NCBI GenBank assembly: GCA_018711135.1
Contig: DVIS01000007.1
Coordinates: forward strand, 1-54,638
DNA: 54,638 nt
DNA from: Candidatus Onthousia faecavium
GTDB lineage: Bacteria; Bacillota_I; Bacilli_A; RF39; UBA660
Direction of reading: 5' to 3'
The notes under the pieces: generated by a model
Databases searched by the model: none
The model's input: the letters and a program-made list of their open reading frames with translations, nothing else
Told to the model about the DNA's origin: nothing
Shown here: positions 19,049 through 54,638 of the stretch, one piece after another
How positions within the stretch are numbered: position 1 is the stretch's first letter
Layout: the number at the start of each line of letters is the position of its first letter
Made by a program: the position numbers and the translations under genes

Positions 19049-20797
19049 ATGGAAAGAAGAAAAGAAAAAATAATAGTGTCAGGTTTAATTTTACTACTAA
19101 TAGTTGCAGTTGTAGGAGTAAGTTATGCCGCATTCAGTTATACAGGAACAGGTCAGACTGTTAATAGTATAACAACAGGTGCAATCACGATGACTTATAC
19201 AGAAAGTGATAATGTCATAAATATGAGTGGAGCTTTACCTACAACAGATAAAACAGGTACAGTTCGCTTAACAGAAGGAGAATACTTTGATTTTACGATA
19301 TCAAGTAATATCATAGGTAATGTTAATATCAACTATGAAATAAGTGCCAAAGAAATAGGAGAAGGAACAATAGATGGTTCTAATATAAAACTATATTTAA
19401 CAAAATTAAATAGTGATGGAACAGAAGAAGCATTAATGGTACCAGAAACATATAGTGAAGAAGCAAGTGCTAATAATTATACCGGAAGACCAGCAGGAGA
19501 GATGAGTTTATATACAAGTAGTATGAACTCTAGCGAAACTAATAACTATCGTCTTAGAATGTATGTAACTGAAGAATATAATCCTCAAGGAGATGGAGGA
19601 GGTTTAACCTTCTCAGTTCAGATAAATGTCTATGGAAAAGATGGAGATAAATATGTTCCAGAGACTGTACAAACAATTTTAGCTAACAACGAATTGCAAG
19701 AAACAAAAGAGAGTATGTTTAATTATACTAGTGATGGAAAACAAGTTGATCCCAATGATGAGGAAGACTATGCAACTGATCCAAATCCAGAATATATAAC
19801 AAATGGATTATACCAAGCAGAAGATGAAGATGGAATAAGTTACTATTTCAGAGGAAATGTAGATAATAACAATGTTCAATTTGGTGAATACCAAGAAGAT
19901 TATTATGTATATCGTACTAGATATGGAGCATATAGATATTATCAAAGTTTAGAAAGTTGCCTAGAATTTGATGGAAATAAAGAGAGTGAATGTTTTCCTG
20001 TTAAACTAGCATCTAAAGGAGATAAAATGTACTGGAAAATTGTAAGAATAAATGGAGATGGTTCTTTAAGATTAATATATGATGGTACACATAATGACGA
20101 GGGTATCCCATATACAAACAATTATTTTGGTAATAAAATGATAGGTGAAGAACGATATGCTGAAAAAAATGATGATCCAAAATATACAGGATATACCTAT
20201 GATAATGGCACTGATTCATTTATAAAGAAAGAGGTAGAGACTTGGTATGCCAATACATTAGGAGCTACTGCTTATGATGATATGGTAATAGGAGGTAGAT
20301 TCTGTAGTGATAGTAGCGGATATAAAAGCGCTAGTGATTATGGCCTTACAGAAGAATTATGGGGACCCTCTGTAGCAGACTTATATTTATATGCGAGTTT
20401 TGATAGACTAGCTTTGCCGCTTGTTTTAGGATTTTCAAGAGACGTTGTCCCAACATTAAAATGTCCAACGACAAGTGAAAGCTATGGAGGAAGCTACAGA
20501 TTAAAAGCAGGTTTAATAACAGCAGATGAATTAGTTTTTGCAGGTATGAATTTTCTCATCCCAACAAGTAACAATTATTTAACTATCGCTGACAATGCTT
20601 TGTATTATACAATGACCCCATCATTACTTGAAAATGTCTTGAATGGTCTTAGAGTGTGGCATATGAGTGTAGACTCTATCTATTATGGCAGCGTGGCTGG
20701 GTATAATGATGGGATACGTCCAGTTATTAATGTAATGCCTGATAACGGTTTTACCGGTGGTGATGGGACTGCTGAAAATCCCTATGTTTTATCATAG
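19049..20797 (+). CDS. Large exported surface protein with a CLec-like C-terminal domain
   Basis: 582 residues. An N-terminal signal/anchor helix (IIVSGLILLLIVAVVGVSYA) is followed by AAFSYTGTGQTVNSITTG, the SipW-dependent TasA/camelysin-like start. Next comes a beta-rich region (about 40-210), a charged linker and a C-terminal domain (about 255-582) containing YWKIVRINGDGSLRLIY and ending with YTMTPSLL...DGIRPVINV...GDGTAENPYVLS. The C-terminal signature matches both repeats of the DGR-like target at 51.7 kb. Its equivalent of the variable segment (about 545-565) uses ordinary T/A-ending codons and shows no C-ending island. No sorting signal is visible at the C-terminus. GGAAGCGAGTAGAA precedes the ATG. 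Confidence 0.75.
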   Translation: MERRKEKIIVSGLILLLIVAVVGVSYAAFSYTGTGQTVNSITTGAITMTYTESDNVINMSGALPTTDKTGTVRLTEGEYFDFTISSNIIGNVNINYEISAKEIGEGTIDGSNIKLYLTKLNSDGTEEALMVPETYSEEASANNYTGRPAGEMSLYTSSMNSSETNNYRLRMYVTEEYNPQGDGGGLTFSVQINVYGKDGDKYVPETVQTILANNELQETKESMFNYTSDGKQVDPNDEEDYATDPNPEYITNGLYQAEDEDGISYYFRGNVDNNNVQFGEYQEDYYVYRTRYGAYRYYQSLESCLEFDGNKESECFPVKLASKGDKMYWKIVRINGDGSLRLIYDGTHNDEGIPYTNNYFGNKMIGEERYAEKNDDPKYTGYTYDNGTDSFIKKEVETWYANTLGATAYDDMVIGGRFCSDSSGYKSASDYGLTEELWGPSVADLYLYASFDRLALPLVLGFSRDVVPTLKCPTTSESYGGSYRLKAGLITADELVFAGMNFLIPTSNNYLTIADNALYYTMTPSLLENVLNGLRVWHMSVDSIYYGSVAGYNDGIRPVINVMPDNGFTGGDGTAENPYVLS

Positions 20798-48780: not shown

Positions 48781-48920
48781 ATGAACACCTAATTAAATCT
48801 ATTCTAAAAAAATAAAAGTATAACTATGAAGAAGAAAAAAGAGTCTCTATTTTTTTGGAATAGAAGAATATTTTACATAAATATATATATAAAAGTTAAT
48901 AATAATAAAAGGTGGTGTTA

Positions 48921-49652
48921 GTGAAAAAAAAGAAACTTACTTATTATATTTTAATAGTTGCTATGACGCTTTTAATAGTTATAACCTCATATAATATAAC
49001 TGCTTATATCTATAACTATTTTAAACATATAAAAGAGATGAAAAGAATCGAAGAAGAGTTTGTTACTGATTCTAGTAGTGATTACTTAGAGATTGATTTA
49101 AATGAATTATTTAAACAAAATACTGATACTGTTGCTTATCTAAAAATAGAAGGAACTAATATTAGTTATCCGGTGGTACAAAGTAATGATAATGATTATT
49201 ACTTAGATCATGACTTTAATAAAGATAAAAATGATGAGGGGGCTATCTTTTTAGACTATCGTAATGACTTAGATAATCTAAGTAGAAATAATATTATCTA
49301 TGGTCATGGAAGACTTGATAAAACGATGTTTGGAAGCTTAGATGAACTTTTAAAAGAAGAGTGGTATCAAAATAATAAACCATATATTAAAGTTACTACT
49401 AAAAAGACAAAAATGATTTTTGAAATATTTAGTGTCTATACGATTTATAAAGAAGGTTATTATCTAACAACCTATTTTACTAGTGATATGTATTTTAAAA
49501 AGTTTTTAGAAGAACTTAAAACTAGAAGCATAATTGACTTTAAGAGTACAGTAAATGTTACTGATAAAATCTTAACTTTGTCTACTTGTCAAAATAACTT
49601 TGGGAAAAGAATTGTCGTTCATGCAAAATTAATAAAAAAAGAAGATGTTTAG
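48921..49652 (+). CDS. Class B sortase, second copy
   Basis: 243 residues from the GTG at 48921 (AAAGGTGGTGTTA upstream); GTG 48912 is part of that site. One N-terminal membrane helix (about 6-26), then the sortase fold with H129 (IIYGHGRLDKTMFGSL), C223 (LTLSTCQ) and the Arg in FGKRIVVHAK. It shares long stretches with the sortase at 7.2 kb (for example SYPVVQSNDNDYYLDH versus NYPIVQTTDNDYYLSH). It converges on, and overlaps by 4 bases, a gene whose product ends in an NPETND sorting signal, its likely substrate. Confidence 0.92.
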   Translation: MKKKKLTYYILIVAMTLLIVITSYNITAYIYNYFKHIKEMKRIEEEFVTDSSSDYLEIDLNELFKQNTDTVAYLKIEGTNISYPVVQSNDNDYYLDHDFNKDKNDEGAIFLDYRNDLDNLSRNNIIYGHGRLDKTMFGSLDELLKEEWYQNNKPYIKVTTKKTKMIFEIFSVYTIYKEGYYLTTYFTSDMYFKKFLEELKTRSIIDFKSTVNVTDKILTLSTCQNNFGKRIVVHAKLIKKEDV

Positions 49653-51703: not shown

Positions 51704-53581
51704 ATGAAAAAGAAATATATTATCGCTGCTGTTCTAATTGTTTTAGTAAGTGTTATTGCCTTAATAGGGACAACTTATGCCTTTTTGACGATGACAATAG
51801 AAGGGGATAAGACTATTACCTTAAGAGCAGGAGTATTTAAAGTGGATTTTACGGAAGGAGATTCAATTAACTTAAATAATGCTGCTCCTGTTAGTGATAG
51901 TAAAGGACAAAGTCAAACACCCTATACTTTTACGATTACTAACGAAGGTAACTTAACAGCGTATTATCATGTTTTAATGGAAGAAGATAGTGCTAATACA
52001 TTAGCGAATAGTTATTTAAAGATGAGAATAACAGGATCTAATGGTTATGATAGTGGAGTAGTAAAAGTAAGTAGTTATGGGACAGGAACGTTTGAAATAA
52101 TAGGAGAAAATGAGTTAGCAGTAGATGGAACTGTAACTTATAACCTCTGGATGTGGTTAGATGAGAATGCGGATAATAGTGCGCAAGGTAAGAACTATAA
52201 GAGTAAGATAGTAGTAGAGAGCTTTGATAGGAGTCAGATGAAAACAGTTGCTGATACTTTATTAACTAATGGAGTAGGAGAAAATGGAACGATAAATACA
52301 ACAGATTCAGAGCAGACATTTATAACAGGAACAGATCCAAACAACTATATCTGGTATAGTGGTAAGTTATGGAGAGCAGTATCAATAGATACAAGTGACA
52401 ATAGTGTTAAATTAGTGACACAGTGGAATATAAGTGCAATTCCTTATAATGAAGAAGATAATACAGCATTTGCAGGTAGTTATATGGAGGAGTGGTTGAA
52501 TGATACAAGTGTTGATGGTTTCTTAGGCAATTTAAGAGATTATGAGAACTTTATTAAGTTAGATAGTGTGTGGAATGCTACATTAACTACATCTACAAGT
52601 AAGCCAGCTGAAACAACGATGGTAGAAGCTCCTGTAGGATTATTAAATGTTTATGAATATACTATGAGCTATAGTGGAACAACTATTAGTAATGGCTATT
52701 TAAATAATGGCCTTAGTTGGTGGAGTGTCACTCCTTCTACTTTGTCAACCGTTCGGTATGTGGACTACCGCGGCAGCGTGTTCAACGAAAGTCCATCGTA
52801 TGTGTATGGCGTGCGGCCATCAATAAATCTAAAATCTAGCGTTAAAATTGTAGAGGGTGACGGCACAGCTGATAATCCGTATAGACTAAGTGGTGACAAT
52901 GATACAAATCTTTCAGGAACAATGTTAAATACAAGATATAGCGGTGAGTATGTAAGATTTGGTAGTGGAGAAAATAATCTATATCGAATAGTAAGTCATG
53001 AAAATGGAATGGGCACAAAGATAACAAGTGCTGAACCATTAAAAAATAGTGGAACATTTGCAAGAATTACTTTTGATAGTAATGGAAATGTGAATTATTC
53101 AAGTGATAATACAATAGGAACATTTTTGAATAATGACTATTTGAATACGGGAAATGGCTATTTGACTGATGAAGATATAGCAATGATAGAAGATGCGACA
53201 ACATGGTATTTGGGAACAGTAGGAAGAGGTGCCTCATATAAACTAGCCAAATATACAAATACTACGGATAATGTTCTAACATCAAGTGTAACGACAGCAA
53301 GAGTAGGGCTATTGAGGCTTGGAGAATTAATGGCAGGACAATTTGAGAGGTATGCAGTTAAAGGTGGAAGCTATAGTACTGGTTTAACAACAACTTATTG
53401 GACCTTAACACCATATTCTTTGTCTTACGTTTGGTCTGTGAACAGCCTCTGCCTCGCGGAACGCCGTAGTCCTTCGTACACGGATGGCGTGCGGCCATCC
53501 ATAAATCTAAAATCTAATGTGCAAATTGTAAATGGTGATGGAACTTTGAATTCGCCGTTCGAGTTACAGTTAGTAAGTTAA
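51704..53581 (+). CDS. Exported DGR-type target protein with two variable CLec-like domains
   Basis: 625 residues. A signal/anchor helix (IIAAVLIVLVSVIALIGTTYA) and a SipW/TasA-like N-terminal domain (FLTMTIEGDKTITLRAG) lead to two tandem domains (about 185-400 and 405-625). Domain 1 ends in WWSVTPSTLS...GVRPSINL...GDGTADNPYRLS and domain 2 in YWTLTPYSLS...GVRPSINL...GDGTLNSPFEL. The segment between TPxxLS and GVRP (residues 350-368 and 576-594) is encoded by mostly C-ending, GC-rich codons, unlike the rest of the gene, and differs between the copies. WW/YW and GVRP are the frame residues of C-type-lectin-fold DGR targets. Probably a surface ligand-binding protein with diversified loops. TAAAGGAGTAAGCAT precedes the ATG. 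Confidence 0.82.
   Translation: MKKKYIIAAVLIVLVSVIALIGTTYAFLTMTIEGDKTITLRAGVFKVDFTEGDSINLNNAAPVSDSKGQSQTPYTFTITNEGNLTAYYHVLMEEDSANTLANSYLKMRITGSNGYDSGVVKVSSYGTGTFEIIGENELAVDGTVTYNLWMWLDENADNSAQGKNYKSKIVVESFDRSQMKTVADTLLTNGVGENGTINTTDSEQTFITGTDPNNYIWYSGKLWRAVSIDTSDNSVKLVTQWNISAIPYNEEDNTAFAGSYMEEWLNDTSVDGFLGNLRDYENFIKLDSVWNATLTTSTSKPAETTMVEAPVGLLNVYEYTMSYSGTTISNGYLNNGLSWWSVTPSTLSTVRYVDYRGSVFNESPSYVYGVRPSINLKSSVKIVEGDGTADNPYRLSGDNDTNLSGTMLNTRYSGEYVRFGSGENNLYRIVSHENGMGTKITSAEPLKNSGTFARITFDSNGNVNYSSDNTIGTFLNNDYLNTGNGYLTDEDIAMIEDATTWYLGTVGRGASYKLAKYTNTTDNVLTSSVTTARVGLLRLGELMAGQFERYAVKGGSYSTGLTTTYWTLTPYSLSYVWSVNSLCLAERRSPSYTDGVRPSINLKSNVQIVNGDGTLNSPFELQLVS
52730..52840 (+). other. Variable region 1 (VR1) of the DGR-like target
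   Basis: Aligned without gaps to VR2. The diversified codons run from GAC (52763) to TAT (52805-52807): D-Y-R-G-S-V-F-N-E-S-P-S-Y-V-Y. Many end in C (GAC TAC CGC GGC AGC, TTC AAC), as expected from NNC diversification of AAC codons. The 3' boundary GGCGTGCGGCCATC (from 52808) plus the following 16 bases is nearly identical in VR2, an IMH-like block. Confidence 0.75.
53409..53520 (+). other. Variable region 2 (VR2) of the DGR-like target
   Basis: The diversified codons run from AAC (53441) to GAT (53483-53485): N-S-L-C-L-A-E-R-R-S-P-S-Y-T-D, again with C-ending codons (AAC AGC CTC TGC CTC, CGC). It matches VR1 in length and boundaries and shares GGCGTGCGGCCATC at its 3' end (from 53486). Its 5' flank (ACCATATTCTT) is closer to the template-like copy than VR1 is. 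Confidence 0.75.
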
Positions 53582-53583
53582 AT

Positions 53584-53621
53584 GTCAGCAGTCTAGGGAA
53601 TGTATTACCTAGACTGCTGAC
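53584..53621. terminator. Strong hairpin after the target gene
   Basis: GTCAGCAGTCTAGG (53584-53597) and CCTAGACTGCTGAC (53608-53621) form a perfect 14-base stem with a 10-base loop. Only AATTAAATTT follows, so it is a weak classical terminator. In characterised DGRs a hairpin/cruciform downstream of the VR promotes mutagenic homing, and this may be an equivalent. Confidence 0.7.
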
Positions 53622-53670
53622 TAATTAAATTTGGCTATAATTAGATTAGAATATATTATAGTAGGGAATT

Positions 53671-53738
53671 ACCATATTCTTCGTCAAACGTTCGGTATGT
53701 GAACAACAACAATCCGTCCAATGCGAACGGCGTCCGGC
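53671..53738 (+). other. Template-repeat-like (TR) copy, 18 nt shorter than the VRs
   Basis: Begins ACCATATTCTTCGTCAAACG and continues through AAC AAC AAC AAT...AAT..AAC to GGCGTCCGG. In the VR frame it reads S-N-V-R-Y-V-N-N-N...N-P-S-N-A-N-G-V-R, an adenine-rich version of the diversified loop. It is noncoding (no start, no ORF) and has nine codons where VR1 and VR2 have fifteen. In its 5' part (TCA to the third AAC) all 5 mismatches to VR1 and 6 of 7 to VR2 fall on template A; in the 3' part several do not. The remainder of the 53622-53960 gap shows nothing else recognisable. Confidence 0.65.
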
Positions 53739-53960
53739 ATTTCCTTGTGTTAAAAACACTAAAGACTAGATAGATAATAGAATTGTAATTACTTATGAAA
53801 CTATTTATACACTATCTCTTCCTATAAAACTAAAGGAAAGGTTAGTCCAATAGTTTATGTCAAGTGTTGTAGTAAAGTTATGTAAAGTACATAATTTTAT
53901 AAAAATGCTTGATTTTTTTTGTGTGCTACATTAAGGGAAAGGTAGGAGAGTGTTGAAAGT

Positions 53961-54424
53961 ATGAAATATAATTTAGTTTATTTAAAATGTAAAGGCGTGA
54001 TGGTTTATGTAAGTAGAAATAATAGTTATGTTGTTAGTTATTTATTGGATAAACTGCATAAAGGGATAATAGATATGCGAAATATTTAAAGTATGGTATG
54101 TTAGCTTCTAGAATGGATAGATTATCTACTGACTTAAAGAACTGTTTACACTTAGATAATATTGAAGAAATTATCTCTAAAATGGAGAGATTCTATAGTA
54201 GTTTTGTTTTAGAAAATAAACTTAAGGAGATAGATATTGTTACTGATAAGATAATTTTAAATATTAATAATAAGACTAAGATATATAAAAGTAGTGAGGT
54301 TTTTACGTTTTTAGGAGTTAATTATAAAGTTAAGAATAATAAAATATCAAGAAGAATAGTTAGTAAGACAAGAGGGAGAGTACTTAAGAAAAATATTAAA
54401 TGTTATTTAAAGTATGAGAAATAA
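53961..54424 (+). pseudogene. Remnant of MutS-like (MSL) accessory gene fused to a reverse transcriptase C-terminus
   Basis: ATG 53961 opens MKYNLVYLKCKGVMVYVSRNN...SYVVSYLLDK, resembling the MutS domain-I-like (MSL) accessory proteins reported near human-gut DGRs; it stops at 54087-54089. In another frame, LKYGMLASRMDRLSTDLKN continues the apparent MSL fold, then the frame from ATG 54098 runs to LNINNKTKIYKSSEVFTFLG followed by VNYKVKNNKISRRI and SKTRGRVLKKN. That is the NxKTKI...FLG...R.KTR..LKK pattern of reverse transcriptase motif 7 and thumb. The RT fingers and palm, including YxDD, are absent. The likely history is a large deletion joining MSL to the RT end, plus a frameshift. Confidence 0.5.
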
Positions 54425-54507
54425 AAAAGTACTTGCTAAAGTGATAGCTTTATGGTAACTTGTAGGTAAGGACGACTTTAAAACAGAATAAAAATAGGGA
54501 GGTGTTG

Positions 54508-54638
54508 GTAGTTAGGTAATTTATAATTTGTGATGTTTAAATTCAAGGGCGATGAATTTAGGTTTCAGGCTCTTTTTGTTTTCTTAAAATTATGTTAAAA
54601 GTATAGATTTAGAAAATTAGTTAGTAGTTGTTAAGTCA
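54508..54638. repeat. Terminal direct repeat, right copy
   Basis: Identical to 1-131. The stretch 54425-54507 between the RT remnant and this repeat holds no gene; GGGAGGTGTTG just before the repeat resembles a ribosome binding site but no start follows. Confidence 0.9.

Follow-up and report, generated by a model that had tools for sequence, protein, structure and literature searches.

Probable relic of a chromosomal diversity-generating retroelement at a gene with two tandem variable regions in Candidatus Onthousia

Near one end of a 54,638-nucleotide stretch of the Candidatus Onthousia faecavium genome (the window; contig DVIS01000007.1 of assembly GCA_018711135.1), a single gene carries two aligned, variable-looking segments followed by an adenine-rich noncoding copy, which raises the question of what wrote these segments and whether the writer is still at work. 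We find that the window very probably holds the relic of a genuine chromosomal diversity-generating retroelement (DGR) cassette, and that the variable regions (VRs) of an exported protein with two DUF6273 domains were written at an earlier time by mutagenic copying. The chromosomal neighbours of the locus include FtsK, DNA polymerase III alpha and PheT, on which basis a prophage origin of the cassette was rejected.

The target gene (51704-53581; + strand, as are all cassette features given below) encodes a protein of 625 aa with an N-terminal membrane/signal segment, a domain with no assigned family and two DUF6273 domains, in that order. The DUF6273 model (PF19789) matches two stretches of the protein with E=1.3e-6 and 28.9 bits, relative to a curated gathering cut-off of 23.5. 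Export is suggested by the hydrophobic, signal-like character of the N-terminal segment; an impression from the same segment that the N-terminus is TasA- or camelysin-like is unsupported, since neither this protein nor any of three paralogues has an N-terminal domain that matches an NCBIfam or Pfam family above cut-off. Domain 1 (52283-52894) is closed by VR1 and a GVRPSINL block, and domain 2 (52895-53578), C-type-lectin-like in a low-confidence model, is closed by VR2 and the same block, the VR in each case preceding the GGCGTGCGGCC block at the domain end. VR1 (52744-52807) matches the template repeat (TR) of the window in its left part with differences at A only, and VR2 lies at 53422-53485. 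IMH-like conserved 3' blocks lie behind VR1 (GGCGTGCGGCCATC; 52808-52821) and VR2 (53486-53499); the conserved block reads GGCGTGCGGCCATC(A/C)ATAAATCTAAAATCTA behind each VR, and is found a third time in noncoding DNA, from 53671 on.

The VR cores that the preliminary description had reported at 52763-52807 and 53441-53485, the 3' blocks and the A-rich copy 185 nt past VR2 (53671) all lie where it placed them. Its codon argument needs rewording: codons ending in C are in clear excess in each VR (7/15, or 47%, with a GC3 of 0.67, versus 7% and 0.23 outside the VRs, with at most 3 in any other 15-codon stretch of the gene), but they are not most of the VR codons. A sortase gene is found 2 kb upstream of the target gene (48912-49652). 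Elsewhere in the window, a 582-aa protein (19049-20797) with no Pfam match has a C-terminus weakly like that of the exported two-domain family (DGIRPVINV...GGDGTAENPYVLS), and is possibly a non-diversified DUF6273-like relative.

The DNA behind the target gene retains pieces of a DGR cassette, with deletions that we mapped by comparison with contig C1 of the same assembly and with sister cassettes of the genus. A hairpin (53584-53621) stands right behind the stop codon and is followed by the TR (53671-53738), which agrees exactly with the TR of sister genome G003 in its 3' part, AACAACAACAATCCGTCCAATGCGAACGGCGTCCGGC, but, relative to that TR, lacks 18 nt at AACAAC repeats, leaving the template 18 nt shorter than VR1 and VR2. 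The leader remnant between TR and accessory genes (53739-53960) is without about 60 nt between two ATTTCCTT repeats, and leads into the truncated 5' remnant, 42 aa long, of a conserved accessory ORF of about 112-117 aa (53961-54089). A fused remnant ORF of 108 aa (54098-54424), joined at the short repeat AATAATAAG, then combines the end of the accessory ORF, the start of an Avd-like gene and ~60 C-terminal residues of an RT (residues 254-316, 83% identity). All RT catalytic motifs, including the DGR-type (I/V/L)GxxxSQ, are missing from this ORF and Avd is truncated.

Differences concentrated at template adenines are seen in the window itself. With the gap placed for fewest total mismatches, 15/32 A's and 15/80 other bases differ between the window TR and its VRs (P=0.004), and with the gap placed for fewest non-A mismatches the counts are 17/30 and 10/60 (P=2e-4). 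The match is less clean than in sister cassettes, with 4-6 non-A mismatches per 30, which points to an earlier version of the TR, or a different one, as the writer of VR1 and VR2.

Complete sister cassettes in the genus run in the order two-VR gene, hairpin, TR, ~117-aa ORF, Avd-like gene and RT. Of 35 genus genomes, 31 have RT matches at E<=1e-20, and about half have a close orthologue (at least 73% identity); the DGR-type motif LPIGNYTSQ and YMDD are intact in the sister cassettes and on contig C1, and RT relatives with these motifs have a PHROG RT match. Across seven sister cassettes with 12 VRs, template A's are changed at 132 of 281 positions and other bases at 22 of 511 (P=2.6e-47), the changed A's going to G, T and C. 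These counts reject chance as the source of the VR/TR differences. The original proposal of a single, signal-bearing protein that has two tandem VRs, serves as a DGR target and lies beside a template holds. A-specific change is seen in both VR1 and VR2 of the same gene, and we therefore conclude that one template serves both. A mechanical TR/VR finder, applied to 80 RT loci, recovered both VRs in six Onthousia-type cassettes; in more distant RT clades it recovered mostly one VR, with two at locus L159.

Sequence comparison shows that VR1 and VR2 were written in the past by mutagenic template copying, with A's converted to any base. Afterwards the local template and machinery were very probably disabled by deletions at short direct repeats, of 18 nt in the TR, of about 60 nt in the leader and of about 1 kb where Avd is now fused to the end of the RT. 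In the intact sister cassettes, one template diversifies both VRs of the gene beside it and, in some genomes, probably unlinked paralogues as well.

The sister cassettes also bear on the smaller parts of the locus. The hairpin is maintained by compensatory changes, with 98% of cells paired (18-46% in slid controls) and double changes at 5/14 pairs. No hairpin of this kind was found at VR1, so one is unlikely to be needed at every VR; possible roles of the hairpin are termination of the target transcript or a part in homing or in the template RNA. The ORF of ~112-117 aa between TR and Avd is conserved across the cassettes of the genus (L138:5360-5695 and counterparts, besides the window remnant), and has no Pfam or other family match of its own; hhalign links it weakly (probability 72) to an ORF from a different RT clade, whose own similarity to MutS_I is marginal. 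It is perhaps a diverged relative of the MutS-like (MSL) proteins, which are known DGR accessories (PMC10053308).

Other DGR parts lie elsewhere in the assembly. Contig C1 carries an intact RT (316 aa, with LPIGNYTSQ and YMDD), which is the only intact RT of its type found in the assembly, together with a 112-aa ORF and an Avd-like ORF that matches the PHROG Avd family at E=3e-7 and the NCBIfam and Pfam Avd models only below cut-off. The adjoining TR was destroyed by an insertion, behind which only its last ~20 nt are left; the C6 TR is interrupted by a recombinase element and the C49 TR is truncated. Similarity searches thus recovered damaged relics on C1, C6, C49 and the window, and no intact template, in an assembly that is fragmented into 55 contigs and from which a complete cassette may be missing. 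A second DGR-type RT of this genome (G000:C30; L002:1201-2606) is accompanied by a clear Avd (NCBIfam DivGenRetAVD, E=1.5e-22). The opening bases of the window (region 1-1186) repeat sequence near the window end (54500-54638) and are followed by a PD-(D/E)XK transposase-family ORF at 416-1186; contig C1 ends in the same repeat, indicating that the assembly breaks at this repeat beside DGR cassettes.

The most serious rival, which we nonetheless regard as unlikely, is that the window locus is dead as a donor while its gene remains a recipient, with the RT and Avd of C1 and a template located elsewhere acting in trans. The intact C1 ORFs fit this reading, as do the unlinked copies that appear to be diversified in trans in sister genomes and, in this genome, a VR on contig C54 that fits a G003-type template (1/41 non-A and 12/24 A differences); the lack of any undamaged template among the four TRs of the assembly speaks against it. 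So does the 18-nt deletion, which would be expected in VRs copied from the window TR but is found in none of the VRs examined in this genome, so that none of them bears a visible sign of copying from the shortened TR. An assembly error could, in principle, account for the deletion. Copies of the VR2 module in the same genome are 65% identical in the VR and 97% identical in the downstream flanks.

Relatives of the two-domain module are present in 33 of 35 genus genomes. They number as many as 27 matches in a single genome, are spread over many contigs, and combine highly similar 3' modules with differing N-termini. Rates of change within this family can be read from G015 and G024, whose RTs are 99% identical. 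Over the last ~1.1 kb of one of the target genes that they have in common, the VRs differ at 14/126 positions versus 5/1008 in the flanks (P=1.6e-10), and 12 of the 14 VR changes fall at A's of a sister template (P=4e-4); the expectation behind the refutation test of the preliminary description, that VRs change faster than their flanks and at template adenines, thus holds in sister genomes. Eight unlinked VRs, chosen for few non-A differences from the template of their own genome, are changed at 88/184 A's versus 42/351 other bases (P=3e-19), and such A-specific differences suggest that in some genomes unlinked paralogues are diversified by the same template. Many other copies have moved away from the present template by drift that affects A and non-A positions to a similar extent, and we infer trans homing for just a part of the family.

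VR diversity could also arise without any DGR, by gene conversion among the many dispersed paralogues in the manner of vlhA or pilin genes; the highly similar 3' modules and differing N-termini of the family fit this reading. Flank divergence does shift abruptly in the cassette genes of G015 and G024, making recombination between paralogues evident; gene conversion would, however, move whole donor blocks without singling out template A's, whereas the differences concentrate at those A's and the VRs are nearly all unique, and we consider it very improbable as the source of the diversity. Least credible of all is that the window cassette is itself a functional DGR that uses a short template and takes its RT from the fused ORF. 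It does keep the hairpin, both ends of the TR and some of the leader, but an RT cut to its last ~60 residues without catalytic motifs, a fragment of Avd and a TR with an 18-nt deletion are all that remains of the rest, and the missing RT domain refutes function in cis unless the assembly is wrong.

The fold of the diversified domain was approached by structure prediction. A model of the single DUF6273 domain, with a pLDDT of only 54, has its best structural match in PDB 9qa6 (Z 14.0, rmsd 3.3 over 193 residues), and its further neighbours include the Treponema DGR variable protein TvpA (2y3c; Z 6.0) and several C-type lectins (Z 3.4-4.3); predicted phage DUF6273 proteins head the viral list. 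The lectin-like fold anticipated for this domain is thus echoed by its structural neighbours in a model of low confidence, in which the domain resembles C-type-lectin folds. Searching PDB sequences with a profile of the domain alignment produced no meaningful match, and a tandem two-domain prediction from 8 sequences reached a pLDDT of 33. The top match, the N-terminal DUF6273 domain of the Thomasclavelia ramosa IgA peptidase, differs in that it belongs to a protease and is not described as a DGR target (PMC12402451). AlphaFold work on DUF6273 DGR targets arrived at the same C-type-lectin-like fold (PMC10743442). We infer that the diversified loops may bind a surface ligand, receptor or antigen through such a fold.

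Bordetella phage BPP-1, the prototype DGR, has an RT, Avd and a TR beside a target with one VR, and the Onthousia cassettes resemble it in this arrangement, in their A-specific changes and in an IMH versus IMH* difference at the 3' end, but carry two VRs in the target. The BPP-1 hairpin lies directly at the VR (PMC3240598), whereas that of Onthousia occurs only behind VR2, at a distance of about 90 nt. DUF6273 proteins as DGR targets and the presence of tandem VRs within a single target have both been published before. Multiple VRs in one target ORF were counted in 31 DGRs of a survey (PMC6642488) and described from Marichromatium (PMC3521204) and Thiohalocapsa PB-PSB1 (PMC10907252), where trans activity was inferred for PB-PSB1. 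Thiohalocapsa PB-PSB1 (DGR 4 and 5) and Marichromatium purpuratum are like Onthousia in having several VR-bearing lectin-like domains per target, swapped N-termini, loci without RT or TR that are apparently trans-diversified, and transposon-damaged DGR parts (PMC10907252; PMC3521204). Their targets are vWA/VMAP conflict-system proteins of purple sulfur bacteria with three tandem CLec domains, whereas those of Onthousia are exported proteins of Bacilli with DUF6273 domains and form a far larger dispersed family. DUF6273 targets are known from gut phages, in Faecalibacterium prophages and tentaclins (PMC11792537, PMC10743442), and likewise have the VR at the domain C-terminus and, by modelling in the tentaclin paper, a C-type-lectin-like fold. 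These phage proteins have one VR-bearing domain each, followed in tentaclins by Ig-like domains, while the Onthousia target is cellular and chromosomal, with a membrane/signal N-terminus and two DUF6273 domains that are C-terminal, and no Ig family match in the 625-aa protein. The window module has no tblastn match in 50,697 phage records. What is notable here is the chromosomal setting in uncultured Bacilli and the large dispersed two-VR family. The 35 species of this one gut genus form a well-populated natural series in which intact cassettes occur alongside broken and element-interrupted ones, and a single template serves both a two-loop protein and some members of a large dispersed family; trans homing, two VRs per protein and DGR loss can thereby be tested directly.

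The interrupting element is of the RIT type. RIT elements consist of three adjacent tyrosine recombinases, span ~3.5 kb and have inverted repeats with a palindrome (PMC3414803), and the element in Onthousia TRs conforms to this definition, with 3373 bp, three PF00589 ORFs, inverted ends and a 20-bp palindrome. In seven Onthousia genomes the element or its scar is found at one and the same TR position, directly behind ...GGCAACGCGAA or its species variant, and both orientations occur. Both ends were read in G008:C20:19509-22906 (L300) and G015:C8:25499-28896 (L258), and one end or flank in G000:C6:3919-4009 (L264), G009:C4 (L301), G011:C48 (L305) and G020:C36/C82 (L302, L303); at G032:C106 (L270) only the palindrome, TTATAAGACATGTCTTATAA, is left, and in G024 a contig consists of the element alone. 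All seven occurrences of the palindrome in the 35 genomes are at this TR position. The elements of G008 and G009 are 99.5% identical over 1385 bp and in opposite orientations, while the RTs of these genomes share 82.7% identity; the insertions therefore seem to be recent and independent. Close RitC relatives (at least 88%) were confined to TRs and the element-only contig, with more distant ones elsewhere. We give even odds to the proposal that the element uses this TR position as a dedicated landing site, its insertion silencing hypermutation and its loss leaving damaged templates behind. Excision might even restore the template, which would make the element an on/off switch. We found no report in the literature of an element with a preference for a DGR template; such an element, if real, would represent a new way of silencing hypermutation systems. 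The 18-nt gap of the window TR spans the RIT-type insertion position, and it is our speculation that the gap is a footprint of this element.
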